Origin: Oscillospiraceae bacterium
Lineage (GTDB): Bacteria; Bacillota; Clostridia; Oscillospirales; Oscillospiraceae
Assembly: GCA_017412765.1 (NCBI GenBank)
Contig: JAFPWN010000040.1
Span: 1-43,049, forward strand
DNA length: 43,049 nucleotides
Direction of reading: 5' to 3'
Part shown: in pieces, positions 11,118-43,001 of the stretch
Numbering within the stretch: the first letter of the stretch is position 1
How the letters are laid out: each line of letters starts with the position of its first letter
Notes under the pieces: generated by a model
Told to the model about the DNA's origin: nothing
Database searches by the model: none
What the model saw: the letters and a program-made list of their open reading frames with translations, nothing else
Made by a program: the position numbers and the translations under genes

Positions 11118-11172
11118 TTTCGAAAAAAAGGATTTTTGCCTTTTCTATAAACACACAGTTAGGAGAAACCCA

Positions 11173-13590
11173 ATGTTCAAAGACAAGCAGGATTTTATCT
11201 CGCAGTACAAGGAGCTGTGCAGAACCGCCCTCGGCAGAGATTTTGAGGATTGCGATAAGAATGAGCGCGCTCAGATGCTTATCCGCTTCATCGCAGCCAA
11301 GGCGAGAGTTCAGCGCTCTGAAAGCATGAAGGAAGTCGCTGAGAAGCACAAAAAGCAGGTCTACTACTTCTCCATGGAGTTCCTCATCGGCAAATTGCTT
11401 GAGAACTATCTTATGAATTTCGGCGTCATTGACACCGTTCGCGAGGGCCTTTGCGACCTCGGCGAGAACCTCGACGACCTTCTGAAGTACGAGCCGGATC
11501 CCGGTCTCGGAAACGGCGGTCTCGGCAGACTTGCCGCTTGCTTCATCGACTCTCTCGCATCCCTCGGCTATGCCGGCCACGGCAACGGTATCCGCTATCG
11601 CTACGGCCTCTTCCATCAGGAGATCAAGGACGGCCGCCAGGTCGAGCTTCCGGATAACTGGCTCGAGGATGGCTATGCCTGGGAGCAGAAAAAGCCTGAA
11701 AATTCCGTGGTCGTTCGCTTCGGCGGCTCCGTTGAGTGCCGCATGGAGAACGGCGAATACAAGTATAAATGGGTCGGCGGAGAGCCTATCCTCGCCGTTC
11801 CGTATGACGTCCCCGTAGTCGGCTACGGCGGAAAGACCGTCAACACCCTCCGCCTCTGGCAGGCTGAGCCCTATAAGCAGGATTTCGATATGGACGCCTA
11901 CAACCGCGGCGACTACTCCGGAGCCTTCAAGTTCCGCTCCGACGTCCACGCGATCACCGCCGTCCTTTACCCCTCCGATAACGCGGATCCGGGCAAAAAG
12001 CTCCGCCTCAAGCAGGAGTATATGTTCGTCTGCGCCGGAATAAACAACATCCTCCGCTCCTATGAGAAAGAGTACGGCCCCGACTGGAAGCACCTTTCGG
12101 ATCACGTCGCCATCCAGACTAACGACACGCATCCCTCCCTCTGCGGCGCAGAGCTTATGCGCGTATTCATGGATGAGAAGAACCTCTCCTGGGCTGAGGC
12201 GTGGGAGATAGTGACCCACACCGTGAGCTACACTAACCACACCATTCTCCCCGAGGCGCTCGAGAAGTGGCCGATCGATATGTTCCGCTCCCTTCTTCCG
12301 CGCATCTACGACATCGTCGAGGAAATCGACCGCCGCTACCGCGAGTCCTTCCCGCGCGACAGGGAAAACTGGCAGGATCTTCTCCGCGCAACCGCCATCC
12401 TCTGGGACGGCCAGGTGCGCACGGCAAACCTCTCCGTCATCTGCGGCCACGCCGTCAACGGCGTTGCTGCGCTCCATACCGAGATCCTCAAGGCGAACGT
12501 CCTCAAGGAGTTCTATCAGCTCACTCCCGAGAAGTTCAACAACAAGACTAACGGCATAACCCACCGCCGCTTCCTCGCTCAGGCGAATCCCAGCCTCGCA
12601 AAGCTCATCACCGACTCCATCGGCGATAAGTGGTACACCGACTGCGACGAGCTTGAGAAGCTTCTCCAGTTCAAGGGCGACAGATCCTTTATGCTCGAGA
12701 TGGAGAAGTCAAAGAAGGAGAACAAGGTCCGCCTCGCAAACTACATTTACGATACGACCGGCGTCGCCGTTGACACAAACAGCATCTTCGACGTTCAGGT
12801 AAAGCGCTTCCACGCTTACAAGCGTCAGCTTCTGAACGTTCTCAAGATAATGGATCTCTATAACCGACTGCTGAACGACCCGAGCTTCGATATGTACCCG
12901 ACCACCTTCGTCTTTGCGGGCAAGGCGGCTCAGGGCTACGAGTTTGCGAAGGACGTAATCCGCCTTGTCAACTCCGTTGCCGACGTTGTCAACAACGACA
13001 AGCGCGTCAGAGGCAGAATAAAGGTCGCGTTCGTCCCGAACTTCTCCGTTTCCAACGCTCAGTATATCTATCCGGCGTCCGACATCTCCGAGCAGATCTC
13101 CACCGCCGGTATGGAGGCGAGCGGCACCGGCAACATGAAGTTCATGATGAACGGCGCCATCACCCTCGGCACGCTCGACGGCGCTAATGTCGAGATCGCA
13201 AACGTCGTATGCGATGAGAACATCGAGATCTTCGGCCTCAGGACCGAGGAGGTCTATCGCATGAAGCGCGAGCACAGCTACTTCGCGTGGGATCTCTACA
13301 ACGCTGACGGACGCATCAAGCGCATTGTCGATCAGCTCATTGACGGAACCTACTCCGGACTCTCCGGCGGCTTCAACGGCATTTACGATGAGCTGCTGCG
13401 CGCAAACGACTTCTTCTTCGTCCTTCCGGACTTCCACTCCTACGTGGACGGCTGGCAGAAGCTCGAAAGACTTTACGCGACCGACAAGAAGCGCTGGAAT
13501 GAGATCAGCCTCACGAACATCGCAAAATCCGGCTTCTTCTCCTCCGACCGCACGATCAGACAGTACGCCGAGGAGATCTGGGGGCTCTGA
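11173..13590 (+). CDS. glgP: Glycogen/starch/alpha-glucan phosphorylase
   Basis: 805 residues, typical of GT35 phosphorylases. It releases glucose-1-phosphate from alpha-1,4-glucan ends with inorganic phosphate, using pyridoxal phosphate. Seen: YYFSMEFLIGKLLENYLMN near the N-terminus, EPDPGLGNGGLGRLAACFID near 111-130, NDTHPSLCGAELMR, and the PLP lysine Lys656 within EASGTGNMKFMMNGAITLG. No allosteric N-terminal extension of the animal type. It follows glgB after 55 bp with TTAGGAGAA as ribosome site. Being inside the synthesis operon means synthesis and breakdown genes are expressed together, as is common in Bacillota. Confidence 0.97.
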   Translation: MFKDKQDFISQYKELCRTALGRDFEDCDKNERAQMLIRFIAAKARVQRSESMKEVAEKHKKQVYYFSMEFLIGKLLENYLMNFGVIDTVREGLCDLGENLDDLLKYEPDPGLGNGGLGRLAACFIDSLASLGYAGHGNGIRYRYGLFHQEIKDGRQVELPDNWLEDGYAWEQKKPENSVVVRFGGSVECRMENGEYKYKWVGGEPILAVPYDVPVVGYGGKTVNTLRLWQAEPYKQDFDMDAYNRGDYSGAFKFRSDVHAITAVLYPSDNADPGKKLRLKQEYMFVCAGINNILRSYEKEYGPDWKHLSDHVAIQTNDTHPSLCGAELMRVFMDEKNLSWAEAWEIVTHTVSYTNHTILPEALEKWPIDMFRSLLPRIYDIVEEIDRRYRESFPRDRENWQDLLRATAILWDGQVRTANLSVICGHAVNGVAALHTEILKANVLKEFYQLTPEKFNNKTNGITHRRFLAQANPSLAKLITDSIGDKWYTDCDELEKLLQFKGDRSFMLEMEKSKKENKVRLANYIYDTTGVAVDTNSIFDVQVKRFHAYKRQLLNVLKIMDLYNRLLNDPSFDMYPTTFVFAGKAAQGYEFAKDVIRLVNSVADVVNNDKRVRGRIKVAFVPNFSVSNAQYIYPASDISEQISTAGMEASGTGNMKFMMNGAITLGTLDGANVEIANVVCDENIEIFGLRTEEVYRMKREHSYFAWDLYNADGRIKRIVDQLIDGTYSGLSGGFNGIYDELLRANDFFFVLPDFHSYVDGWQKLERLYATDKKRWNEISLTNIAKSGFFSSDRTIRQYAEEIWGL

Positions 13591-13679
13591 TACCCCGAAA
13601 AACCCGCCCGCGGGGCGACACAAAACCGTGTTCAAAATAATTAACATAACCTAACTATTCTGAAAGAAGGTGCGCGAAA

Positions 13680-14834
13680 ATGGCAAAGAAAAAAGAGTTC
13701 ATCGCGATGCTCCTTGCCGGTGGTCAGGGATCGCGTCTCGGTGCGCTGACAAAGAGCGTCGCAAAACCCGCCGTCAGCTTCGGCGGCAAGTACAGGATCA
13801 TCGACTTCCCCCTTTCAAACTGCGCCAATTCCCATATCGACACGGTGGGCGTGCTTACACAGTACCGTCCTCTGCGTCTTAACGCGTATCTCGGCACGGG
13901 TCACGCCTGGGATATGAACGGCCGCGACGGCGGCGTATTCATCCTCCCGCCCTACGCGACCGAGTCCGGCGCCGAGTGGTACAAGGGTACCGCCGACGCT
14001 ATCTACCAGAACCTCGACTTCATCGACCTCTACGATCCCGAGTACGTCATAATCCTCTCCGCGGATCAGATCTACCGCATGGACTATCAGGATATGCTCG
14101 CAACTCACAAGAAGCACAATGCCGATCTCTCCGTCGCCGTCATGCAGGTGCCCTGGGAGGACGCTTCCCGCTTCGGCATCATGACCGCCAAGGAGACCGG
14201 CGAGATCGTAAAGTTCACCGAGAAGCCGAAGAACCCCGATTCCAACCTCGCCTCCATGGGCATCTACATCTTCACAAAGAGCGTTCTTAAGAAGGCTCTT
14301 ATGGAGGACGCCGCCGATCCCAACTCCGAGCATGACTTCGGCAACAACATCATTCCGAAGCTCCTCGCGGAGGGCAAGCGCCTCTTCACCTATGAGTTTG
14401 CCGGCTATTGGAAGGACGTCGGAACTTTCGGAAGCTATCATCAGACCAGCATGGAGCTTCTTGACGAGAATCCCGAGTTCGATCTCTACGATCAGGAGAA
14501 CCCGATCCTCTCCAACACCAACTCTCAGCCGCCTCAGTACATCGGCGCAAACGGCTGCATCAGACAGTCCATCGCCGCTAACGGCACCCGCATCTTCGGC
14601 ACCGTCGAGCATTCCGTTCTCGGAGCCGACGCCTTTGTAGGCGAGGGCGCTTTCGTCAAGGATTCCGTCATTCTGCCCGGCGCCCGCGTCGAGGCAGGTG
14701 CAAAGGTCGTCCGCGCCATCCTCGGCGACGGTGCGATCGTAAAGGAGAACAGCGTTTTCGGCTCCGAGGATGAGTCCGTAGCCATCGCAGTTCTCGGAAA
14801 TGAAGCCGTTTACGGCGTGGGAGGTAACGAGTAA
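13680..14834 (+). CDS. glgC: Glucose-1-phosphate adenylyltransferase (ADP-glucose synthase), catalytic subunit
   Basis: 384 residues. Makes ADP-glucose from ATP and glucose-1-phosphate, the committed step of glycogen synthesis. Visible: nucleotide loop [15 protein letters not shown] at 10-24, [20 protein letters not shown], sugar-phosphate residues in [13 protein letters not shown] and [18 protein letters not shown], and a C-terminal left-handed beta-helix of hexapeptide repeats from about 290. The segment usually read LSGDHIYKMDY is [11 protein letters not shown]; the metal-binding Asp is kept. Start ATG with AGAAGGTG upstream. Its stop overlaps the glgD start by one base (TAATG), so the two are translationally coupled. 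Confidence 0.96.
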
Positions 14835-15937
14835 TGGATAGAGCAATCGGTATAATCACTACGAACTATGAAACTCCCGACCTCAAGGAGCTCATAAACG
14901 GCCGTACCGCCGCTTCCGTCCCCTATGGCGGACGCTATCGCATGATCGACTTCTCCCTCTCCAACATGGAGAACGCTGACATCACCACCGTCGGCATCGT
15001 CACTCCGTACAAGTACCGCAGCCTTATCGACCACTTCGGCGCGGGCAGCGAGTGGAATCTCGACCGCAAGATCGGCGGACTTTTCGTCCTGCCCGGCTCC
15101 GTTTTCGGTATCTCCACCAAGGGCAGCCGCTTCCTTCTCCGAGACTTCCGCCGCAATATGGTATTCCTAAGCCGCGCGAGCGCGAAGTACGTCGTAGTCA
15201 CAACCGCGAACATCGTCGCTAACCTCGATTACAACAAGATGATCGACCAGCACGAGAAGAGCGGCGCGGACATCACCCTCGCCTACGTTGAGGGCGTGCG
15301 CGATGATAACGACATCTCCACCATCGTCACCGACGAAAGCGGCAAGGTAAAGGACATTCTCCGCGGCGTAAAGAAGGGCGACAAGGCGTTCGTTGACTCC
15401 TTCGTCATCAGCTACGAGCTGCTTCTCAAGATCCTCGACTGGTATGCCGCCATCGACTACCTCGATCTCTTCGAGGCTCTCGCCGCCGACTTTGACAAGA
15501 TGGACATCCGTCTGTTCAAGGTCGAGGGCTACCTCAGAAGCATCTATTCCGCCGGAAACTACTTCCGCAATTCTATGGATCTTCTCAGACCCGAGGTCTC
15601 CGACGAGCTCTTCCGCCGCGACCGTCCCATCGCCACCAAGATCACCGACGCGCCTCCCACAAAATACGGCGCAGAGTGCGTTGTCAAGAACAGCCTTATC
15701 CCCGCCGGCTGCATTATCGAGGGTACCGTTGAGAACTCCATCCTCTTCCGCGGCGTTACCGTCGGCAAGGGCGCGGTAGTCCGCAACGCGATCGTAATGC
15801 AGTCCTGCAAGATCGGCGACGGCGCTGTTGTTGAGAACGCGATCATCGACCGCTCCAACAAGATCGAGGCAGGCTCTGTTCTCAAGGGAACTCCCGAGAA
15901 CATTCTCATCAAGGAGAAGAACGAGCTCGGCAACTGA
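14834..15937 (+). CDS. glgD: GlgD, regulatory/non-catalytic partner of ADP-glucose synthase
   Basis: 367 residues, a GlgC paralogue. The N-terminal nucleotide loop GGxGxRL is replaced by ITTNYETPDLKELI, so it is unlikely to be catalytic alone; in Bacillota GlgD forms a heteromer with GlgC and alters its activity and control. The C-terminal beta-helix repeats (ENSILFRGVTVGKGAVVRNAI) are clear. The pair glgC-glgD is a Bacillota signature. Coupled to glgC by TAATG. Confidence 0.95.
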   Translation: MDRAIGIITTNYETPDLKELINGRTAASVPYGGRYRMIDFSLSNMENADITTVGIVTPYKYRSLIDHFGAGSEWNLDRKIGGLFVLPGSVFGISTKGSRFLLRDFRRNMVFLSRASAKYVVVTTANIVANLDYNKMIDQHEKSGADITLAYVEGVRDDNDISTIVTDESGKVKDILRGVKKGDKAFVDSFVISYELLLKILDWYAAIDYLDLFEALAADFDKMDIRLFKVEGYLRSIYSAGNYFRNSMDLLRPEVSDELFRRDRPIATKITDAPPTKYGAECVVKNSLIPAGCIIEGTVENSILFRGVTVGKGAVVRNAIVMQSCKIGDGAVVENAIIDRSNKIEAGSVLKGTPENILIKEKNELGN

Positions 15938-15948
15938 AAAACGCGCAT

Positions 15949-15978
15949 CATAGGGAGGGGGAAATTCCCCTCCCTTAT
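15949..15978 (+). terminator. Hairpin between glgD and glgA, no T-run
   Basis: GGGAGGGG (15953-15960) pairs perfectly with CCCCTCCC (15967-15974) around a GAAATT loop, extended by CATA/TTATG. Without a T-run it is more likely an RNA-stabilising or processing hairpin than a terminator inside the operon. Confidence 0.5.
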
Positions 15979-16014
15979 GAGAATACCCCACCCTTTTCAA
16001 GAGGTGAAAGTACT

Positions 16015-17661
16015 ATGAAAAGAAGAATGAATGTCCTTTTTGCCGCTTTTGAGGCTGTACCGTTCATGAAAACGGGCGGTCTCGGCGACGTTGCGGGCTC
16101 TCTGCCCGAGGCGCTGAACGGCGCCGGCTGCGACGCAAGGGTCATCATGCCCAACTTCTCCGGAATTCCGCAGGAATACCGCGATGAGATGACGCACCTC
16201 TGCGACTTTTATGTGCCGCTTGCGTGGCGCAACCTCTACTGCGGCATCGAGACTCTTACAAGGCGCGGCGTGACGTATTACTTCGTCGATAACGAGTATT
16301 ATTTCAACCGCGGCTCAGCCTACGGCTACTTTGACGACGGCGAGCGCATCGCCTTCTTCTCAAAAGCAGTCGTCGAGGCGATACAGTATCTGCCGGATTT
16401 CCCGGTGGATATCCTCCACGCCAATGACTGGCACACTGCGCTCAGCCCCGTTTTCCTCCGCGAGTTCTACCGCGGCATCGAGGCTTATGACCGCATAAAG
16501 ACTGTTTTCACAGTCCATAATCTTAAGTTCCAGGGTCAGATGTCCGATTACGTCCTTGCGGACGTTCTCGGTCTTGCCGGGATCCCGGCTGCCGCCGATC
16601 AGCTCAGAATGGACAAGGACAGCATTGACTTCATGAAGGGCGCGCTGTGTTACTCCGACGTTCTGACGACGGTATCGCCCACCTATACCGAGGAGGTTCA
16701 GCGCCCGTTCTTCGGCGAGCATCTCGACGGCATCTTCCGCCGCCGCTCCAACGTCCTCTACGGCGTTATGAACGGAATCGACTATTCCGAATGGGATCCT
16801 TCGACCGATCCTTATCTCGTAAACCACTTCTCGAAGGACGATCTTTCCGGCAAAGCTGCGCAGAAGAGAGCGCTCCAGGAGGAGCTCGGCCTTGACGTTG
16901 ACGAGAATATCCCGCTTATCGTCATGATCGGCAGACTCACCGAGCAGAAGGGTCTTGACCTTGTAGCGCGCGTGATCGAGGAGATGCTTTATAAGCCCGT
17001 GCAGCTCGCGGTGCTCGGCACCGGCGACGCGAAGTACGAGGATATGCTGCGCTACTATGCGTGGAAGTTCCCGGGCCGCATGAGCGCGTGCGTCACCTTT
17101 GATAACTCCCTCAGCCACCGTATGTACGCCGGCGCAGATATGCTGCTCATGCCGAGCCTCTTCGAGCCGTGCGGACTGAGTCAGATGATCGCCATGCGTT
17201 ACGGTACGCTGCCCGTAGTACGCGAGACCGGAGGCCTCAAGGACTCCGTAATTCCTTACAACCAGTACACTGGCGAGGGTACCGGATTCTCCTTTGCCAA
17301 CTACAATGCCCACGAGATGCTCTACACCGTTCAGCACGCCGCGGATCTGTTCCGCAGCGATAAGGACGTTTGGAAAAAGCTCCAGACGCAGGCGATGGAG
17401 GCGGATTTCAGCTGGGCAAAGGCCGCGAAGCAGTACGTGGATATCTACGTCGGACTTCAGCCTGACGTCGAGCCGGGCGACCCGGAGCCGGTAAAGACTG
17501 AGGAAAAGCCGAAGAAGGCTCCCGCGAAAAAGCCTGCTGCCGAGAAGAAGCCGACTGCTGAGAAAAAGGCGGCTACTCCGAAAAAGACCGCCGCTGAGAA
17601 AAAGCCGGCGGCAAAAAAGCCCGCAGCCAGGAAAAAGGCAGAGCCAAAAGAGGAAAAATGA
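16015..17661 (+). CDS. glgA: Glycogen synthase (ADP-glucose type, GT5) with lysine/alanine-rich C-terminal tail
   Basis: 548 residues. The GT5 core (about 1-480) extends alpha-1,4-glucan from ADP-glucose: MKTGGLGDVAGSLPEAL at 18-34 holds the KTGGL motif, HANDWHTAL near 136, TVHNLKFQG, and PSLFEPCGLSQMIAMRYGTL as the C-terminal donor-site motif. From about residue 483 an extra ~65-residue tail follows, built from Lys, Ala, Pro and Glu in repeats such as KKPAAEKKPTAEKKAATPKK, resembling histone H1-type disordered tails. Bacterial GlgA normally ends at about 480, so this is an appended element with unknown role (see findings). Last gene of the glycogen operon. Confidence 0.95.
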   Translation: MKRRMNVLFAAFEAVPFMKTGGLGDVAGSLPEALNGAGCDARVIMPNFSGIPQEYRDEMTHLCDFYVPLAWRNLYCGIETLTRRGVTYYFVDNEYYFNRGSAYGYFDDGERIAFFSKAVVEAIQYLPDFPVDILHANDWHTALSPVFLREFYRGIEAYDRIKTVFTVHNLKFQGQMSDYVLADVLGLAGIPAAADQLRMDKDSIDFMKGALCYSDVLTTVSPTYTEEVQRPFFGEHLDGIFRRRSNVLYGVMNGIDYSEWDPSTDPYLVNHFSKDDLSGKAAQKRALQEELGLDVDENIPLIVMIGRLTEQKGLDLVARVIEEMLYKPVQLAVLGTGDAKYEDMLRYYAWKFPGRMSACVTFDNSLSHRMYAGADMLLMPSLFEPCGLSQMIAMRYGTLPVVRETGGLKDSVIPYNQYTGEGTGFSFANYNAHEMLYTVQHAADLFRSDKDVWKKLQTQAMEADFSWAKAAKQYVDIYVGLQPDVEPGDPEPVKTEEKPKKAPAKKPAAEKKPTAEKKAATPKKTAAEKKPAAKKPAARKKAEPKEEK

Positions 17662-35252: not shown

Positions 35253-35281
35253 TTGAAAAGTCGGCGCGTTGATGCTATAAT
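35253..35281 (+). promoter_or_regulatory. Promoter of the amylosucrase-PTS operon
   Basis: TTGAAA (35253-35258), 17 bp, TATAAT (35276-35281). A second possible promoter is TTGTTA (35163-35168), 17 bp, TAAAAT (35186-35191). The gap 35137-35357 is otherwise noncoding. Confidence 0.75.
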
Positions 35282-35301
35282 TTAATAAATTCCAAGAAAA
35301 G

Positions 35302-35336
35302 GCAAAGCCCGTTAATAGATGGTCTTTGCTTTTTTT
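35302..35336 (+). terminator. Leader terminator (attenuator) before the amylosucrase gene
   Basis: GCAAAG (35302-35307) pairs with CTTTGC (35324-35329), extended by CC/GG past a one-base bulge, followed by seven T (35330-35336). It lies between the promoter and the ribosome site AAAGGAG (35344-35350), the position of a transcription attenuator. No clear BglG/SacY-type antiterminator sequence was recognised. Confidence 0.6.
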
Positions 35337-35357
35337 GTGTCTGAAAGGAGAATTACC

Positions 35358-37202
35358 ATGCCTGATAAGACAAATTGGAGCGATGAGTTCCGTAAGAGAT
35401 TTGACCGCCATGAGGATGAGCTCAGATGGCTTTATTTTGAGCTTTACGGTGAAGACACCGAGGCTTACGAGTATTTCTGCAAGGTGCTGCGGGAGGCTTA
35501 TGAGGCTCGCCCCGACAGCCTTAAAAAGCTTGATCGTGACAGAGAGAAGCACCCGGACTGGTATCGCGGCCACGATCTTGTCGGTATGCTCGCTTACGTC
35601 AAGGCGTTTGCCGGAACGCTGAACGGCGTGCGGTCCAAGCTCGACTATATCGAGGAGGCGGGGGTGAATTACCTGCACCTGATGCCGCTTCTGGAGAGTC
35701 CCGAGGGCAGATCTGACGGCGGCTATGCCGTTTCGGACTTCCGCAAGGTGCAGCCCGAGCTTGGCACGATGGAGGATCTCTCGGCTCTCAGCGAGGACTG
35801 CCATAAGCGCGGCATTTCCGTCTGCCTCGACTTCGTTATGAACCACACCTCCGAGGATCACGAGTGGGCAAGGAGGGCAAGAGCGGGAGAAAAGGAGTAT
35901 CAGGACAGATATTTCTTCTTCGACGACTGGCGCATACCGAATGAGTATGAAAAGACCGTTCCGCAGGTGTTCCCGACCACGGCGCCCGGCAATTTCACGT
36001 GGTGCGACGAGGCAAAAAAGGTCGTAATGACCTGCTTCTATCCGTATCAGTGGGATCTGAACTATAAAAATCCCACCGTTATGAACGATATGACGGACAA
36101 TATGCTGAACCTCGCAAACCACGGCATCGACATTATCCGCCTCGACGCCGTTCCGTACATCTGGAAGGAGCTCGGCACCTCCTGCCGCAATCTTAAAGAG
36201 GTGCATTCGCTCGTCCGCATCATGCGAATGACCTGCGAGATCGTCTGCCCCGGAACGCTTCTTCTCGGCGAGGTAGTAATGGAGCCGTCGAAGGTAGTGC
36301 CGTATTTCGGCACGGTGGAAAAGCCGGAGTGCCACATGCTCTACAACGTAACAACGATGGCTACGACCTGGCACACGGTCGCAACGAAGGACGTTTCGCT
36401 TCTTAAGCACCAGCTCGCGCAGGTGTTCGCGCTTCCGAAGGACTACGTTTTTCTGAATTATCTCCGCTGCCACGACGATATCGGCTGGGGTCTTGACTAT
36501 CCGTATCTATGGCAGTTCGGAATGGAAGAGGTCAGCCACAAGCGTTTTCTGAACGATTACTTCACCGGCAAGTGGCAGGGCTCTGACTCCCGCGGCGAGC
36601 TGTATAACGACGACCCGAGGCTCGGAGACGCGCGTCTGTGCGGCACGACAGCCTCGCTCTGCGGCCTTGAGACCGCGAGAGCCGAGAAGGACGACGTCAA
36701 GGAGGAGTTTGCCGCGCGCTACGATATAATGCTCCACGCCTATATGTTCACGCTCTCGGGACTTCCCGTGCTCTACTCCGGCGACGAGATCGCAGAGACG
36801 AACGACTACGGCTACCACAACGAGCCCTTCAAGTGCGAGGACAGCCGCTGGCTGCACCGCGGCGATATGGATTGGAAGGCCGCCGAAAACCGCACCAAGC
36901 GCGGCACGGTCGAGAATACGGTTTTCGCCTCGCTCAGAAAGCTTGAAAAGCTCAGAGCAAGGCACAGCGTGTTCGACGGCTCCGCCGATACGTGGGTCGT
37001 GGAGACCGGCGACCCCGCCGTTCTCGGGATAGGCAGATGGAAGGATGGGCAGAAGCTCATCGCGCTCTTCAATTTTTCAAAGAGCCTCAAGACTGTGAAG
37101 ATAGGCGAGCGCGGCGAGTTTACCGACCTTATGACGAATAAAAAGCGCGGCGCCATGAGCGTTACGCTCAGACCCGGCGACTTCGCGTGGCTTCTGGGGT
37201 GA
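35358..37202 (+). CDS. Amylosucrase-like GH13_4 enzyme
   Basis: 614 residues from ATG 35358 (AAAGGAG upstream), close to Neisseria amylosucrase (636). Amylosucrase uses sucrose to add glucosyl units to an alpha-1,4-glucan and frees fructose. The amylosucrase N-terminal helical domain is present (residues 1-85), then LHLMPLLESPEGRSDGGYAV, DFVMNHTSEDHEWA, FYPYQWDLNYKNP, nucleophile Asp263 in IDIIRLDAVPYIWK, GTSCRNLKEVHSL, acid/base Glu305 in LLLGEVVMEP and RCHDDIGWG at 370-378 with the third carboxylate. These motifs follow amylosucrase rather than sucrose phosphorylase or alpha-glucosidase. No signal peptide: intracellular. It heads an operon with HAD, PTS, HPr, EI and fructokinase genes; the partner enzymes support sucrose as substrate. 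Sucrose hydrolase activity (GH13_4 relatives) is the main alternative. Confidence 0.88.
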   Translation: MPDKTNWSDEFRKRFDRHEDELRWLYFELYGEDTEAYEYFCKVLREAYEARPDSLKKLDRDREKHPDWYRGHDLVGMLAYVKAFAGTLNGVRSKLDYIEEAGVNYLHLMPLLESPEGRSDGGYAVSDFRKVQPELGTMEDLSALSEDCHKRGISVCLDFVMNHTSEDHEWARRARAGEKEYQDRYFFFDDWRIPNEYEKTVPQVFPTTAPGNFTWCDEAKKVVMTCFYPYQWDLNYKNPTVMNDMTDNMLNLANHGIDIIRLDAVPYIWKELGTSCRNLKEVHSLVRIMRMTCEIVCPGTLLLGEVVMEPSKVVPYFGTVEKPECHMLYNVTTMATTWHTVATKDVSLLKHQLAQVFALPKDYVFLNYLRCHDDIGWGLDYPYLWQFGMEEVSHKRFLNDYFTGKWQGSDSRGELYNDDPRLGDARLCGTTASLCGLETARAEKDDVKEEFAARYDIMLHAYMFTLSGLPVLYSGDEIAETNDYGYHNEPFKCEDSRWLHRGDMDWKAAENRTKRGTVENTVFASLRKLEKLRARHSVFDGSADTWVVETGDPAVLGIGRWKDGQKLIALFNFSKSLKTVKIGERGEFTDLMTNKKRGAMSVTLRPGDFAWLLG

Positions 37203-37206
37203 TGGG

Positions 37207-38031
37207 ATGGAGAAAAAACTAATTTTCCTCGACATCGACGGCACGCTGACCGTTGCGGGCTCGAATGACCCGCCGGAGAGCGCTGTTCGCGCGATAAAGA
37301 AAGCGCAGCAAAACGGACACAAGGTCTTTCTCTGCACCGGGCGCAACCTCGACATGCTCTCTCCGCTCCTGCGCTTCGGCTTTGACGGCGTGGTCGCCTC
37401 GGCGGGAGGCTACGTCACCGCCGGCGACGAGGTGCTGTTCGACTGCCCGATGACGGACGTTCAGCTCGAAAAAGCCATGCGCCTACTCGGTGAGAACGGC
37501 GTTTTCAGAACGATCGAGGCAAAGGACGCCACCTTCGGTGACGAAAACCTCGGCGATTTTCTTGCAAACGCCGGCGAGGGCAACAGCGAGCTCATGCGCT
37601 GGAGAAGGACTCTCGCGCAGGAGCTGAATATCAGGCCGATGGCGGAATACGACGGCAGACCGATATACAAGGTTGTTATCATGTGCCTCGAGTGGAGCCA
37701 GCTCGAGCCTGCCAAGCGCGAGCTTGAGGGGGAGTTTGACTTCTGTATTCAGGATCTTGCCGCCCGCGGCTGCCTCAACGGCGAGCTGATAAACCGCCGC
37801 TTCAGCAAGGGCACAGGAGTTCGCCTCGCCGCTGATAAGCTCGGCTTCGATATTGCCGACACCGTCGGCTTCGGCGACAGTATGAACGACCTCGAGATGA
37901 TAAAGTCGGTCGGCACGAGTGTGTGCATGGCAAACGGCTCGCCGCAGCTCAAGGAAATTTCGGATATCGTCTGTCCCTCCGTTGAGGAGGACGGATTATA
38001 TAAAGCGTTTACCGACCTGAAATTAATTTAA
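37207..38031 (+). CDS. HAD-superfamily phosphatase (Cof type), candidate sucrose-6-phosphate phosphatase
   Basis: 274 residues, HAD subfamily IIB. Motif I FLDIDGTL with Asp9 and Asp11, motif II CTGR, lysine of motif III in RFSKGTGV and motif IV GFGDSMNDLEM. Cof-type enzymes dephosphorylate sugar phosphates in the cytoplasm. It sits 4 bp after the amylosucrase and 20 bp before the sucrose-type PTS permease. Because PTS uptake yields sucrose-6-phosphate and amylosucrase needs free sucrose, the simplest role is removal of that phosphate; this is inference from context. It could instead be a general sugar-phosphate phosphatase. Confidence 0.9.
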   Translation: MEKKLIFLDIDGTLTVAGSNDPPESAVRAIKKAQQNGHKVFLCTGRNLDMLSPLLRFGFDGVVASAGGYVTAGDEVLFDCPMTDVQLEKAMRLLGENGVFRTIEAKDATFGDENLGDFLANAGEGNSELMRWRRTLAQELNIRPMAEYDGRPIYKVVIMCLEWSQLEPAKRELEGEFDFCIQDLAARGCLNGELINRRFSKGTGVRLAADKLGFDIADTVGFGDSMNDLEMIKSVGTSVCMANGSPQLKEISDIVCPSVEEDGLYKAFTDLKLI

Positions 38032-38051
38032 AAAAGGAGATATAAGTAAGT

Positions 38052-39935
38052 ATGGCACTCGACTACCGCAAATGCGCCGAGGAGATTTTTTCTCACCTCG
38101 GCGGGCGCGACAACATCATCAGCGCGGCACACTGCGCCACGCGCCTGCGCCTTGTTATCGCGGATAATTCCAAGATCGACAAGGAAGCCCTCGAAAACGT
38201 AGAGGGCGTAAAGGGACTGTTCGATTCCAACGGTCAGCTCCAGCTCATCATCGGCACCGGCACCGTAAACAAGGTCTACGACGAATTTCTCGCCGTCACC
38301 GGCATGACCGCCGCCACGAAGGACGAGGTAAAGCAGGCCGCCGCTTCCAAGATGCCGCTCTGGAAGAAGATCCTCAAGACGCCCGGCGACGTTTTCGTAC
38401 CTATTCTCCCCGCGATCGTAGCCTCCGGCCTTATGATGGGCATCGTCGAGGCTATCCCGAAGTTCGCTCCCGCGTTCGGTCAGACCGACTGGTTCTCTTT
38501 CCTTGACCTCGTAGCAAACACCGCGTTCGCGCTCCTTCCCGTGCTTGTAGCTATCTCCGCCGCGAGAGTTTTCGGCGGCAATATCTTCCTCGGCGCCGTT
38601 ATCGGTTTGATGATGGTTCACCCTGCGCTCATAAACGCCTGGACGGTCAGCAGTTATGTCGGCGAAATTCCGACCTGGTCGATCTTCTTCTATCCGATAC
38701 AGCAGGTCGGCTATCAGGGTCACGTTATCCCGGTAATATTGGCGGTTCTCCTGATGAGCACCATCGAAAAGTGGCTGCATAAGCACGTTCCCGAGATGAT
38801 CGACCTCTTCGTTACTCCGCTCGTCACCGTAGTCTGCACCGCTTACCTCACCTTCACCGTTATCGGCCCCGTGTTCTCCGTGTTTGAGAACTGGGTGCTC
38901 GCCGGCGCTCAGGCGCTGATCACAGTCGGCTTCGGCCTCGGCGCCGCGGTCATGGGCGCGATCTATCCGCTTACCGTCGTCATGGGACTTCACCACATGT
39001 ACAACGTCATCGAGGCGGGCATGATCTCCTCCACCGGCGTAAATACGTGGATGCCCATCGCCACCGCTGCGAATATCGCGCAGTTCGGCGCCTGCCTCGC
39101 GGTCGCGCTCAAGTGCAGGAATCAGAAGACGAAGTCCGTAGCGCTCCCGTCCTCGCTCTCCGCCTCTCTCGGCATCACCGAGCCTGCCATTTTCGGTATC
39201 AATTTCCGCTTCATGAAGCCCTTTATCGCCGGTATGATCGGCGGCGCCGTCGGCTCCCTCTTTGCCTCGTGGATGACCGGTACCGATATGAACGGTAACG
39301 TAGTCAAGTTCGGCGCCACCACTTACGGCGTGACCGGTATCCCCGGCATACCCGCTATCAACAATATCCCGATGTATCTTCTCCTTATGCTCATCTCCGC
39401 CGGCGTTGCGTTTGCAATCACCTGGTTCATCTGGAACGAGGATGAGCCGAAAAAGCAGACTGCAAACGGCGCGCCCGCAGCAAAGACCGAAGCCAAGGCG
39501 CCGGCCGCGAGCGTTATCCGCTGCGCCGCAGGCGAGCTTATCCAGCCCACTCCAGGCAAGGTCATCGCGCGCGAGAATATCCCCGACGCGACCTTTGCTG
39601 ACGGCATCCTCGGCGACGGAGTCGGCATAGAGCCGTCTGAGGGCGTCGTCTATGCCCCGTTTGACGGCGAGGTCACGAGCGTTTTCGACACGAAGCACGC
39701 CATTACCCTCGAAAAGAACGGCATGGAGGTCCTCATCCACGTCGGTGTCAACACCGTCAACATGAACGGCGAAGGCTTTGAGGCGTTCGTTAAGGAGGGA
39801 GACACCGTCAAGGCGGGACAGAAGCTACTCACCTTCGATTCCGCGAAGATCAAGGCCGCCGGTTATTCCGACTGCGTGGTCGTTCTTCTCACAAACGCGG
39901 AAGAGCTCGAAAAAGTAGAATGCGGTATTAAATAA
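38052..39935 (+). CDS. PTS EIIBCA permease, sucrose/beta-glucoside family, probably sucrose-specific
   Basis: 627 residues in the order B-C-A. EIIB at 1-85 with phosphorylated Cys28 in AAHCATRLRLV; EIIC about 105-450 with ~10 membrane segments, including GLHHMYNVIEAGMI and SLGITEPAIFGINFRF; a Pro/Ala-rich linker, then EIIA of the glucose type from about 495 with His563 in EVLIHVGVNTV (phosphate-carrying) and His549 in TKHAITL. It imports and phosphorylates a disaccharide using phosphate from HPr. Closest in pattern to ScrA/SacP sucrose permeases; trehalose-type is the alternative. Amylosucrase and fructokinase in the same operon favour sucrose. Confidence 0.9.
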   Translation: MALDYRKCAEEIFSHLGGRDNIISAAHCATRLRLVIADNSKIDKEALENVEGVKGLFDSNGQLQLIIGTGTVNKVYDEFLAVTGMTAATKDEVKQAAASKMPLWKKILKTPGDVFVPILPAIVASGLMMGIVEAIPKFAPAFGQTDWFSFLDLVANTAFALLPVLVAISAARVFGGNIFLGAVIGLMMVHPALINAWTVSSYVGEIPTWSIFFYPIQQVGYQGHVIPVILAVLLMSTIEKWLHKHVPEMIDLFVTPLVTVVCTAYLTFTVIGPVFSVFENWVLAGAQALITVGFGLGAAVMGAIYPLTVVMGLHHMYNVIEAGMISSTGVNTWMPIATAANIAQFGACLAVALKCRNQKTKSVALPSSLSASLGITEPAIFGINFRFMKPFIAGMIGGAVGSLFASWMTGTDMNGNVVKFGATTYGVTGIPGIPAINNIPMYLLLMLISAGVAFAITWFIWNEDEPKKQTANGAPAAKTEAKAPAASVIRCAAGELIQPTPGKVIARENIPDATFADGILGDGVGIEPSEGVVYAPFDGEVTSVFDTKHAITLEKNGMEVLIHVGVNTVNMNGEGFEAFVKEGDTVKAGQKLLTFDSAKIKAAGYSDCVVVLLTNAEELEKVECGIK

Positions 39936-39953
39936 TCCAAAGGAGATAATAAT

Positions 39954-40214
39954 ATGAAATCATTTGAGTACACCATCACCGATCCCGTCGGCATCCACGC
40001 CCGCCCCGCAGGAATACTCGTCAAGGAAGTAAAGGGATTTGCCGGCTCCACCGTCACCATTCAGAAGGGCGAGAAGAGCGTCAACGCGCTCAAGCTCATG
40101 GCTCTCATGCAGATGGGCATAAAGCAGGGCGACACCGTCACCGTTTCCGTCGAGGGCGGCGATGAGGAGGCTGTCTGCGCCGCGCTCGAGAGCTTCTTCA
40201 AGGCAAATCTGTAA
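39954..40214 (+). CDS. ptsH: HPr phosphocarrier protein, without regulatory Ser46
   Basis: 86 residues. Active-site His15 in VGIHARPAG is present, so it can pass phosphate from Enzyme I to the EIIA domain. The site that in Gram-positive HPr reads N-L-K-S-I-M, with Ser46 phosphorylated by HPr kinase, here reads N-A-L-K-L-M: lysine stands in place of Ser46. It therefore probably cannot take part in CcpA/HprK catabolite repression through that residue. AAAGGAGA upstream, 18 bp after the EII gene. Confidence 0.95.
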   Translation: MKSFEYTITDPVGIHARPAGILVKEVKGFAGSTVTIQKGEKSVNALKLMALMQMGIKQGDTVTVSVEGGDEEAVCAALESFFKANL

Positions 40215-40226
40215 CTAAAACCGCAT

Positions 40227-40259
40227 ACAAAACGGCTGCCGTAATGACAGCCGTTTTGT
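40227..40259 (+). terminator. Intercistronic hairpin between ptsH and ptsI
   Basis: ACAAAACGGCTG and CAGCCGTTTTGT form a perfect 12-bp stem with a 9-nt loop; the right arm ends in TTTTGT. It probably acts as a partial terminator or 3'-end stabiliser, giving more HPr than Enzyme I. Confidence 0.75.
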
Positions 40260-40283
40260 CGATTGATGAAAGGAGAAAAACCC

Positions 40284-41963
40284 ATGATTTCCATTCAGGG
40301 AAAGGGCGTTTCCACCGGCGTGGCAGTCGGCCCTCTGTACTTCTACCGCCGCGCAAAGAGTGAGATCACCCGCGCCGCCGTATCTGATACCGAAGCGGAG
40401 TGGGCGCGCTTCAAGGCTGCCCAGGAGAAGGCAATAGCCGAGCTTAACGCTCTCGCTGAGAAGGCGAGAGCAGAGGCGGGCGACGAGGCCGAGATGCTCT
40501 TCGAGACCCACGCGATGATGGTCGAGGATATGGACTATGAGGAGGCTATCGAGGCGGGCATTAAGGAGTCCGCGCTCAATGCCGAGGCTGCGGTCTCCGA
40601 CGCCGGCGAAATGCAGGCTGCCGCCTTCTCCGCTATGGACGACGATTATTTCAGGGCTCGCGCAGCCGACGTCAAGGACATCTCCGCCCGCCTTATCGGA
40701 ATACTCTCCGGCGCGGTCGAAGGAGGCATCGACTCCGACGTACCGGTAGTCCTCGCGTCCGACGATCTTGCGCCGAGCGAGACCGTTCAGCTCGATAAAT
40801 CCAAAATCCTCGGCTTCGTGACAAGCGGCGGCTCCGGCTCGAGCCACACCGCCATTCTCGCCCGCACGATGGGAATTCCCGCCATCATCGGAGTCGGCGA
40901 TAAGCTGAAAGCTGAATACGAGGGGCGCGAGGTCGCCATTGACGGCGGCACCGGCGCCGTTGTCATAGAGCCGGACGAGGCTACAAGAGCGCAGATGATA
41001 GCAAAGCGCACAGAGCTTCTGAAGCGCCAGGCGCTATTGAACGAGCTGAAGGGCAAGCCCAACGAAACGAAGGACGGCCAGCGTATCCGCGTCTACTGCA
41101 ACATCGGCTCTCCGGAGGACGTTCACGCCGTTCTCGAAAACGACGGCGGCGGAATCGGACTCTTCCGAAGTGAGTTCCTCTACCTCGAGTGCGACGATTA
41201 TCCCACCGAGGACTATCAGTTCGAGGCGTACAAAAAGGTGCTCTCCGATATGGGCGACAAGGAGGTCGTCATCCGCACGCTCGACATCGGCGCCGACAAG
41301 CAGATAGGCTACTTCAATCTCCCGAAGGAGGAGAATCCGGCGCTCGGCAACCGCGCCCTGCGAATCTGCCTCAACCGCCCGGAGATATTCAAGACACAGC
41401 TCCGCGCGCTTTACAGAGCCTCGGCATACGGCCACCTCTGCATAATGTTCCCGATGGTCACCTCCGTCTGGGAGGTCAGAGAGGCGAAGAAGCTCATCGA
41501 GGTCGTCAAAAAGGAGCTGACCGCCGAGGGGATCCCCTACGCCGAGGACGTTCAGGTCGGCATCATGATCGAAACGCCCGCCGCCGCCGTCATCTCCGAC
41601 AGGCTTGCCAGGGAGGTAGACTTCTTCTCCTGCGGCACAAATGACCTCACGCAGTACACTCTCGCCTGCGATAGACAGAATAACGATCTCGGCCGCTTCT
41701 TCAACCCCCACCATCCGGCTGTCATCAGGCTTCTCAAGATGGTCTGCGACAACGCGCATAAGAACGGGATCTGGGTCGGAATCTGCGGCGAGCTCGGCGC
41801 TGACCTCGAGCTTACGGAGACCTTCCTCTCCATCGGCATCGACGAGCTTTCCGTATCCCCGAGAAGCGTTCTTCCGCTCCGCCGGAAGATACGCGAGACC
41901 GACGTGCGCGCCGTGCGAGAGAAGTGCATAGCAGACCTCATGAGCGACGAGTACAGACTATGA
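40284..41963 (+). CDS. ptsI: PTS Enzyme I (PEP-protein phosphotransferase)
   Basis: 559 residues from ATG 40284 (AAAGGAG upstream; an earlier in-frame ATG at 40263 lies before that site). Takes phosphate from PEP to its own His and passes it to HPr. Active His188 in TSGGSGSSHTAILARTMGIP, then the PEP barrel with GIGLFRSEFLYL, GADKQIGYFNLPKEENPALG, FSCGTNDLTQYTLACDR and GICGELGAD. Slightly shorter than the usual ~570. Its stop overlaps the fructokinase start (ATGA). General PTS genes inside a sugar-specific operon suggest a PTS that serves mainly this sugar. Confidence 0.97.
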   Translation: MISIQGKGVSTGVAVGPLYFYRRAKSEITRAAVSDTEAEWARFKAAQEKAIAELNALAEKARAEAGDEAEMLFETHAMMVEDMDYEEAIEAGIKESALNAEAAVSDAGEMQAAAFSAMDDDYFRARAADVKDISARLIGILSGAVEGGIDSDVPVVLASDDLAPSETVQLDKSKILGFVTSGGSGSSHTAILARTMGIPAIIGVGDKLKAEYEGREVAIDGGTGAVVIEPDEATRAQMIAKRTELLKRQALLNELKGKPNETKDGQRIRVYCNIGSPEDVHAVLENDGGGIGLFRSEFLYLECDDYPTEDYQFEAYKKVLSDMGDKEVVIRTLDIGADKQIGYFNLPKEENPALGNRALRICLNRPEIFKTQLRALYRASAYGHLCIMFPMVTSVWEVREAKKLIEVVKKELTAEGIPYAEDVQVGIMIETPAAAVISDRLAREVDFFSCGTNDLTQYTLACDRQNNDLGRFFNPHHPAVIRLLKMVCDNAHKNGIWVGICGELGADLELTETFLSIGIDELSVSPRSVLPLRRKIRETDVRAVREKCIADLMSDEYRL

Positions 41964-42892
41964 GCAAGGTATACGACGCAGCCGCCATCGGCGAGATACT
42001 CATAGACTTCACGGAGGAGGGCGGCAGATTTACTCCGAATCCCGGCGGCGCTCCGGCAAACGTGCTTGCGATGCTCCGCAGGCTCGGCAAAAGCTGCGCC
42101 TTTATCGGCAAGGTCGGGCAGGATTATTTCGGCGATTCTCTCGCCGGCGCGCTCGACTCTCTCGGCATAGATACCGGCGGACTGATGCGCGACGCGAGGG
42201 TGAAAACGACGCTTGCCTTCGTCCACACGCTTCCGGACGGCGACAGAGCCTTCAGCTTTTACCGCGACCCCGGCGCCGATATGATGCTCAGAGCCGGTGA
42301 GGTAAGCGGCGAGATAGTCGATTCCTGCCGCATATTCCATTTCGGAACCGTCTCCATGACGGCAGAGCCTGCAAAAACCGCCACTATCGAAGCGGTGGAG
42401 CGGGCGAAACGCGCCGGAGCGATCATCAGCTTCGACCCAAATCTGAGGCTGAACCTCTGGCGGAGCCACGAGGAGGCGAGAGAGGCGATGGAATACGGCC
42501 TTTCCGTCGCGGATATTGCGAAGATAAGCGATAACGAGGTCGAATTTCTCATCGGAGAGCGCGATTGCGACTACGCCGGCAGAAAGCTGCAGACGGTCTA
42601 CCCGAACCTGCGGCTGTTTACCGTCACGGCCGGCGCGAACGGAAGCTACGCGTTCCGCGGCGCGGCGTCCGCATTTGAGCCTGCCTGCAAAAAGGGAGGC
42701 GTGATCGAGACCACCGGCGCGGGCGATACCTTCTGCGGATGTATGCTGAACGCAGTTCTGGAGCATGGCTTTGATTTTGACCTGCACGAAGCCATGCGCT
42801 TTGCAAATCACGCGGCGTATCTCGTTACGACCCGCCGCGGCGCGCTTATGCAGATGCCGGAAAAGAGCGAGGTCGAGGAGCTTTGCGCCTGA
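41960..42892 (+). CDS. Fructokinase (PfkB family)
   Basis: 310 residues from ATG 41960, overlapping the Enzyme I stop by 4 bp; the earlier in-frame codon at 41924 lies well inside ptsI. PfkB sugar kinase: NPGGAPANVLAMLRRLG at 27-43 (PfkB signature 1 with GG), FHFGTVSM, SFDPNLRLNLW as in fructokinases, and GVIETTGAGDTFCG with catalytic Asp256. Converts fructose plus ATP to fructose-6-phosphate. In this operon it would use the fructose freed by amylosucrase. Confidence 0.93.
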   Translation: MSKVYDAAAIGEILIDFTEEGGRFTPNPGGAPANVLAMLRRLGKSCAFIGKVGQDYFGDSLAGALDSLGIDTGGLMRDARVKTTLAFVHTLPDGDRAFSFYRDPGADMMLRAGEVSGEIVDSCRIFHFGTVSMTAEPAKTATIEAVERAKRAGAIISFDPNLRLNLWRSHEEAREAMEYGLSVADIAKISDNEVEFLIGERDCDYAGRKLQTVYPNLRLFTVTAGANGSYAFRGAASAFEPACKKGGVIETTGAGDTFCGCMLNAVLEHGFDFDLHEAMRFANHAAYLVTTRRGALMQMPEKSEVEELCA

Positions 42893-42966: not shown

Positions 42967-43001
42967 GAAACGGTCGTGACTAAGATGGTCACGACCGTTT
43001 C
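42967..43001 (+). terminator. Hairpin after the PTS operon
   Basis: GAAACGGTCGTGAC (42967-42980) pairs perfectly with GTCACGACCGTTTC (42988-43001), 14 bp, loop TAAGATG. There is no T-run, so termination is not certain. A smaller GTCGCC/GGCGGAC hairpin precedes it near 42939-42955. Confidence 0.6.

Follow-up and report, generated by a model that had tools for sequence, protein, structure and literature searches.

The window analysed here, a 43,049-nucleotide stretch of DNA from an Oscillospiraceae gut bacterium, is the entire contig C30 of a 2.28 Mb draft genome (98% complete, 74 contigs) and carries an operon that, judged from its sequence, probably forms a self-contained pathway from sucrose to alpha-glucan. 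The operon encodes an amylosucrase, a HAD phosphatase, a phosphotransferase system (PTS) permease (enzyme II, EIIBCA), HPr, Enzyme I (EI) and a fructokinase, all on the + strand from 35358 to 42892. A sequence-only reading of the window had given this order together with gaps of 4, 20, 18, 69 and -4 bp between the genes, and both were reproduced. A chance row of six genes is ruled out by the recurrence of the set across amylosucrase loci. The six genes and the proposed glycogen sink are:

35358..37202, + strand, GH13_4 amylosucrase of 614 aa, with an ATG behind AAAGGAG (solved homologues, intact residues)
37207..38031, + strand, HAD-IIB (Cof-type) phosphatase, with sucrose-6-phosphate (glucosyl C6) as proposed substrate (Hydrolase_3 159.7 bits)
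38052..39935, + strand, PTS EIIBCA of the glucose/sucrose superfamily, presumably sucrose-specific (TIGR01996 525.4 bits, cut-off 559.3)
39954..40214, + strand, HPr (TIGR01003 86.3 bits, cut-off 47.9)
40284..41963, + strand, EI (TIGR01417 603.6 bits, cut-off 341.7)
41960..42892, + strand, PfkB-type kinase, presumably a fructokinase (PfkB 166.8 bits)
9207..17661, + strand, glgB-glgP-glgC-glgD-glgA, assigned by curated models, the glycogen store proposed as sink

In the proposed route, EI and HPr would relay the phosphate of phosphoenolpyruvate (PEP) to EIIBCA, and sucrose would enter the cell as sucrose-6-phosphate, phosphorylated on C6 of the glucosyl unit. The HAD phosphatase would strip this phosphate inside the cell. 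The amylosucrase would then take free sucrose and attach its glucosyl unit to non-reducing ends of glycogen, and the freed fructose would be converted to fructose-6-phosphate by the fructokinase. GlgB would branch the polymer and GlgP would mobilise it. Every substrate and the direction of flow are what we infer from the genes, as is glycogen, not short maltodextrins, as the acceptor. The glg operon does lie 18 kb away, as the sequence-only reading had said; GlgB, GlgC, GlgD and GlgA score over curated cut-offs and GlgP over a subfamily cut-off. The fructokinase has as its top NCBIfam model the fructokinase NF006957, at 192.4 bits (under the cut-off of 450).

The HAD gene tracks the PTS permease across amylosucrase loci. 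A first set of 64 loci was drawn from bacterial and archaeal genome contigs with patterns taken from the window's own enzyme, and it holds two types of neighbourhood. In one, the amylosucrase is followed by HAD and EII, often with HPr and EI and sometimes with LacI in between. The other has LacI, a solute-binding protein and two ATP-binding cassette (ABC) permease genes, sometimes with fructokinase, MalQ or GlgP; many of the 64 loci have neither type. Since an ABC importer brings in unphosphorylated sugar, the HAD gene is expected to be missing at ABC loci. EII is in the flank of 30 loci, with HAD in 24 of these compared to 0 of the 34 without EII. Whole-genome searches cover 50 of the 64 loci, in genomes whose completeness is not stated; among the 14 omitted, L007, L008 and L012 have EII and HAD in the locus and 11 show neither there. 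In these 50 genomes the HAD orthologues form a separate class of 455 to 513 bits, with nothing from 178 to 455, and are found in 23 of 29 genomes with EII (three of these EIIs are contig-end fragments) and 0 of 21 without.

A second sample of 300 genomes from the family of the window was used to reduce the bias of window-derived patterns. Amylosucrase was found in 63 (E <= 1e-120). With a threshold of 440 bits for HAD and 915 bits for EII, 10 genomes have HAD and 19 have EII, all of them among the 63; both thresholds were chosen after the scores were known. The next HAD scores are 408 (G716), 390 (G560) and 353 (G553) in genomes with amylosucrase and 398 (G573) and 388 (G628) in genomes without. 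The next EII scores are 862 (G622) and 827 (G722), both with amylosucrase, then 763 (G599) without it, and then 629 to 621, where one of three has it. Loci were retrieved for 60 of the 64 amylosucrase hits other than the window.

Pooling the two sets gave 114 non-redundant copies, 109 of them full-length and 102 with enough flank (window included). The tree of 109 rows omits 5 broken-match loci, redundant copies (97% identity or more) and copies under 560 aa, and the table of 102 loci drops 7 short-flank rows; the EII of L086 was scored by hand because it extends beyond the contig. EII and HAD occur together in 28 of the 102 loci, EII only in 12, HAD only in 2 and neither in 60. HAD is therefore present at 28/40 loci with EII versus 2/62 without. 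The order amylosucrase, HAD, EII on one strand is kept in 26 of the 28; HAD and EII lie upstream in one of the remaining two, and EII lies beyond the contig end in the other. Of the loci that lack EII, 27 carry ABC permease genes on the same strand within 9 kb, and none of these 27 has HAD; the ABC label is a rough one based on similarity, and the EII and HAD locus L019 has ABC-type genes 7 kb away. That HAD goes with the PTS and is absent with ABC import supports the phosphatase-amylosucrase scheme. The 12 EII-only loci include 4 with a metallo-beta-lactamase (MBL)-fold protein, 2 with GH32 and 6 with none of these nearby. On the amylosucrase tree, a quick tree with long-branch warnings, the EII state changes at least 16 times and HAD 13 times. 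Supported branches yield 10 independent pairs; on average HAD moves with EII in 4.7 of them, opposite to it in 0.2 and does not differ in 5.2. In G006, G444, G560 and G716, HAD and EII are on other contigs than the amylosucrase that was found, and the stretches fetched around them show no amylosucrase next to them.

Permease genomes without the phosphatase were predicted to hold a sucrose-6-phosphate hydrolase (family GH32), and those that lack both HAD and the MBL-fold protein do. Across the pooled sets, 47 genomes have an EII orthologue (G001 and G708 counted once). HAD is present in 33, with G716 and G560 entered as HAD despite their 408 and 390 bits, and 15 of the 33 have a GH32 over the cut-off of TIGR01322, the sucrose-6-phosphate hydrolase model. 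The MBL-fold protein, sought in fetched loci only, takes the HAD slot in 4 genomes, none with an over-cut-off GH32 (G684 misses by 0.4 bits). Neither HAD nor MBL is found in 10, and all 10 have an over-cut-off GH32; no genome is without HAD, MBL and GH32 alike. The difference between 10/10 and 15/33 has a Fisher p of 0.0024, relatedness ignored. Since 47/47 carry HAD, the MBL-fold protein or GH32, every genome with EII has a plausible outlet for sucrose-6-phosphate. The MBL-fold protein (PF12706, PhnP-like) lies at these positions:

L125, 10893-11726, in the HAD slot
L126, 10854-11687, in the HAD slot
L135, 2922-3755, in the HAD slot
L136, 10852-11688, in the HAD slot
L180, 5601-6431, - strand, beside GH32

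The use of the slot by the MBL-fold protein is counted as one event, since the EIIs of L125, L126, L135 and L136 form one clade. Its role as a replacement phosphatase was considered and set aside, because the copy in L180, which is 75% identical, adjoins GH32 and EII.

The relatives of the permease point to sucrose as its likely substrate. Cys28 and His563, which we take to be the EII active-site residues, are invariant in 20 of 20 sequences. In the EII tree, which is midpoint-rooted and has L178 on a long branch, the sister clade (L177, L178, L180) consists of EIIs in operons with GH32. The L178 operon (LacI-EII-GH32-fructokinase-HPr-EI) corresponds to that of the window with GH32 replacing HAD and amylosucrase; the L178 GH32 reaches 400 (cut-off 356). 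The EIIs of L151 and L154 nest within the HAD-linked clade and have an over-cut-off GH32 between amylosucrase and EII. The clade is thus coupled in its genomes to sucrose genes, GH32 in L151, L154, L177, L178 and L180 and fructokinase in L151, L154 and L178. Since GH32 sucrose operons flank the EII branch of the window on both sides, sucrose is favored over the other sugar that the sequence-only reading had allowed for.

The HAD protein belongs to the HAD-IIB group. It scores 64 bits with TIGR01484 (cut-off 41.8), and both motifs and fold agree with this: DxDGT, K201 and GDSxND do not vary among the 24 operon homologues aligned, and the AlphaFold model (pLDDT 89.8) has as nearest structures the HAD-IIB-type 3fzq, 2pq0 and 1ymq (BT4131). 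The score with the Cof subfamily model TIGR00099 is just under the cut-off (136.9 versus 137). A plant/cyanobacterial-type sucrose-phosphate phosphatase was rejected, with a TIGR01482 score of 68.8 versus a subfamily cut-off of 107.15. The sucrose-phosphate phosphatase structure 1s2o ranks only 42nd against the model (TM 0.56), and the Pfam S6PP model is passed (35.7 versus 20.3), but over residues 195-248 only. In L174, a relative of the HAD protein (52% identity) lies beside a GH36 alpha-galactosidase gene, GH32 and EII, which is perhaps the same trick for another sugar.

The first gene encodes an enzyme of the amylosucrase family. The nearest 18 of 18 solved sequences (E 9e-126 to 1e-142) match over near full length and are labelled amylosucrase or sucrose hydrolase; two are sucrose hydrolases, presumably both from Xanthomonas, and one is labelled 'amylosucrase or alpha amylase'. 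Trehalose synthase or oligo-glucosidase was rejected as an identity, as the next family, trehalose synthase, reaches only 4e-58. These homology and residue analyses were run from a start one codon late (35361), and residue numbers count from MPDK. D263, E305, D373, D120, H163, R261, H372 and R497 are all present, each of them conserved in at least 108 of the 109 relatives. We take D263 as the nucleophile, E305 as the acid/base, D373 as the stabiliser and the other five as the sucrose site, in which D120 and R497 would be the Asp/Arg pair closing subsite -1. R426, in a segment (DPRLGDARLCGT) that presumably carries the acceptor-site arginine of amylosucrases, is arginine in 109/109 and Gly in the one sucrose hydrolase sequence that was aligned. 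A glucan-forming enzyme is favored because this arginine is kept. It is suggestive of transglucosylation to alpha-1,4-glucan. With its sucrose-site residues and this arginine, the enzyme looks like a transglucosylase, as the proposed route predicts.

The window has no GH32, as the sequence-only reading had noted, and the operon so lacks the hydrolase of a classical sucrose operon. Several findings weigh against the proposed route. The sequence-only reading had held that a GH32 sucrose-6-phosphate hydrolase induced by sucrose elsewhere in the genome would refute it, and the genome partly bears this out. One GH32 gene, the sole match in the genome, does exist on another contig (C36:24699-26048), but it scores just under the hydrolase cut-off (353.5 bits versus 356.4 for TIGR01322) and is part of a LacI/ABC cluster, where ABC permease genes precede it on the strand it occupies and a LacI gene lies opposite, pointing towards it. 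This suggests a separate ABC-fed route for beta-fructosides. The operon route is not refuted by this gene, but the cell may be able to do without that route. The operon would still not be the only route of the cell, because the genome has this GH32 and a full ADP-glucose pathway. EIIBCA is under the TIGR01996 sucrose IIBC cut-off (by the scores listed above), although this is its best BC model; the EIIs of 7/7 scanned relatives are also under it (501.4 to 522.4 bits). G599 has an EII of 763 bits, just under the threshold, and no amylosucrase. The tree-aware test is not significant for HAD alone (median p 0.0625, range 0.031 to 1); for HAD or the MBL-fold protein, 7.1 pairs go with EII versus 0.1 against (median p 0.016). 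Two genomes have HAD without EII: G522, which is 100% complete and has amylosucrase-HAD-fructokinase with no EII match at 1e-170, and G553, which is 79% complete and has a divergent HAD. The wider HAD family is not tied to the route, since relatives with 53-56% identity are found in G573 and G628, which have neither an amylosucrase nor an EII match; there they adjoin a pyridoxal-phosphate enzyme, an acetyltransferase or a fructokinase-like gene. GH32 and a HAD can also coexist, because in L154 a distant HAD (24%, 52.8 bits) lies within the GH32 operon, flanked by GH32 and EII. Seven loci (L022, L023, L025, L030, L037, L064 and L116) have EII but show neither HAD nor MBL nor a GH32 on the same strand in the vicinity.

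These seven loci, in which amylosucrase and EII adjoin without HAD, would fit an enzyme that uses sucrose-6-phosphate directly, either as a hydrolase or as a transferase that makes a phosphorylated glucan, while the HAD enzyme clears the phosphorylated product or surplus glucose-6-phosphate. Broad activity on sugar phosphates is common among HAD-IIB enzymes, and several of the structures matched carry the name sugar phosphatase. However, the genomes of all seven loci have an over-cut-off GH32 elsewhere, and the glucosyl-site residues are identical in PTS-linked and other copies (109 copies, 40 PTS-linked), with one R-to-H at the subsite -1 Arg among the 40, which argues against a switch of substrate. 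This explanation is therefore improbable. Slightly less probable again is a permease that carries another disaccharide or a glucoside, with the amylosucrase merely its neighbour and sucrose coming from elsewhere. The sub-threshold score of EII and a beta-glucoside IIABC model that scores about equally (531.2 versus 525.4 bits) would allow it, but the GH32 partners of the sister-clade EIIs in L177 and L180, the full GH32, fructokinase, HPr and EI set in L178 and the nesting of L151 and L154 all argue for sucrose, and in the family sample amylosucrase is present in 19/19 genomes whose EII reaches 915 bits.

It is similarly unlikely, at about the level of direct use of sucrose-6-phosphate, that the enzyme chiefly hydrolyses intracellular sucrose and that the operon is only catabolic. 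Amylosucrases do hydrolyse part of their substrate, and the window enzyme (CFYPYQWDLN) and the Xanthomonas sucrose hydrolase (TFYPYQWDLN) have the local motif FYPYQWDLN in common. The window enzyme nevertheless scores higher with amylosucrases (479.7 versus 441.8 bits for the sucrose hydrolase), and its acceptor-side arginine is retained within a stretch where the hydrolase diverges; some ABC-linked relatives adjoin MalQ and GlgP. Storage of imported sucrose as alpha-glucan thus remains the favored function of the operon.

The usual view of sucrose PTS systems is that they lead to hydrolysis of sucrose-6-phosphate. Classical sucrose PTS operons are scrA-scrB-scrK and sacPA. The operon of the window is like these in having an EII of the same superfamily and a fructokinase, to which HPr and EI are added; it differs in that a phosphatase and an amylosucrase replace GH32, and the glycosidic bond would be kept for glucan. 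Enterococcus faecalis has a maltose PTS with the maltose-6'-phosphate phosphatase MapP and a maltose phosphorylase. There too, the phosphate is taken off the PTS product inside the cell, which makes the bond energy usable, but the sugar is maltose, the phosphatase has an unrelated fold and a phosphorylase takes the place of the glucan-forming transferase. Methanotrophs carry a gene set like spsA-sppA-frkA-amsA. In Synechococcus PCC7002, whose operon is of this kind, sucrose is made in the cell with the phosphate on fructose (6F), whereas here it would be imported with the phosphate on glucose. The PCC7002 spsA-sppA-frkA-amsA operon is described as one of sucrose synthesis with amylosucrase (PMC11046441), and it resembles the window operon in its phosphatase, fructokinase and amylosucrase acting on sucrose-phosphate and in its glycogen sink. 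Faecalibacterium prausnitzii, another gut Firmicute, has an amylosucrase in a sucrose/fructan cluster with an ABC transporter, LacI, beta-fructosidase and fructokinase, and E. coli with the F. prausnitzii ams gene degraded sucrose (PMC8894670). That cluster is ABC-fed and is listed there without PTS or phosphatase, unlike the operon of the window and like the ABC context of its relatives. Searches of the open-licence literature turned up no description of the combination of PTS, phosphatase and amylosucrase, and the sequence-only reading had likewise known of none. Each enzyme belongs to a known kind, whereas their wiring is apparently new. The ABC-type amylosucrase clusters of L046, L049 and L050 also have fructokinase and MalQ, with GlgP in L046 and L049, and are possibly a complete intracellular loop that makes and uses glucan from sucrose.

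The route would change the cost of storage. Import by the PTS costs one PEP, whose phosphate GH32 would return as glucose-6-phosphate, and storage through GlgC then costs one ATP. The phosphatase forfeits the imported phosphate, and the amylosucrase stores the glucosyl unit without further cost. Compared with import, hydrolysis and synthesis of ADP-glucose, storage would therefore save one ATP, because the amylosucrase bypasses the ATP used by GlgC. The phosphate linked to import is seemingly discarded so that glycogen can be built from the bond of sucrose, with no need for ADP-glucose. The trio of amylosucrase, HAD and EII is found together in records named Lachnospiraceae, Erysipelotrichaceae and Oscillospiraceae, many of them ruminant-derived, and the carriers include the named isolates Oribacterium sp. 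C9 and Lachnospiraceae AD3010; the genome record of the latter (G026) gave no GH32 match. Rumen microbes rapidly store soluble sugar as glycogen, and the route would for this reason bear on models of rumen fermentation. It is also a pitfall for annotation, as HAD and EII fall short of the specific curated models, in part only narrowly.

The PTS chain probably came or went with the cassette. The operon EI is the only one found in the genome (a single match in G000, E <= 1e-80), and no EI match at 1e-80 was seen in four relatives of the same genus that lack an amylosucrase match (G366, G555, G619 and G669, 96-100% complete). The only other carrier seen in the genus, G708, has one EI, and the remaining 19 genomes in the search have one or two each. 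The base composition of the window gives no clear signal of foreign origin. A wider and tentative idea, somewhat less likely to be right than wrong, is that a mobile cassette with its own EI, HPr and permease makes sucrose hoarders of gut bacteria that lack a PTS, through phosphorylated import, immediate dephosphorylation and glycogen paid for by the bond, and that an exchangeable module of HAD, MBL-fold protein or GH32 routes sucrose to storage or glycolysis.

The operon is bordered by possible control signals:

35253..35281, + strand, promoter-like site TTGAAA-17-TATAAT with TG before the -10 (11/12 match, consensus only)
35295..35336, + strand, leader hairpin with a U-run, a possible attenuator or 5' stem of the operon (-19.1 kcal/mol, z -4.15)
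42967..43001, no strand assigned, 14-bp inverted repeat 3' of the last gene, terminator-like on the - strand only

The sequence-only reading began the operon at 35253, which is the -35 box of the 11/12 promoter match; sites of that grade number 6 in the region versus 2.8 expected. None of 200 shuffles folds as well as the leader hairpin, which recurs in the leaders of L004 (z -4.70) and L008 (z -2.89), both from the same genus. An unusual fold is absent in the more distant L005, L006 and L007 (z 0.43, 0.43 and -1.06), and a hairpin common to L004-L008 was therefore dropped. The hairpin region has zero Rfam matches at the gathering threshold. This U-tailed hairpin, which lies between the promoter and the amylosucrase start, could be an attenuator like those of sucrose operons under antitermination control. 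Terminator-like sites number 9 in the region versus 8.7 expected. The contig runs out 157 bp past the fructokinase, which is probably the end of the operon, because the next shared downstream gene in L004 is on the opposite strand. Upstream of the operon, at 33478-35136, is a GH13 alpha-glucosidase-like gene for which phosphotrehalase models are the best but under cut-off, and such a gene is also directly 5' of the amylosucrase in L004 and L008.

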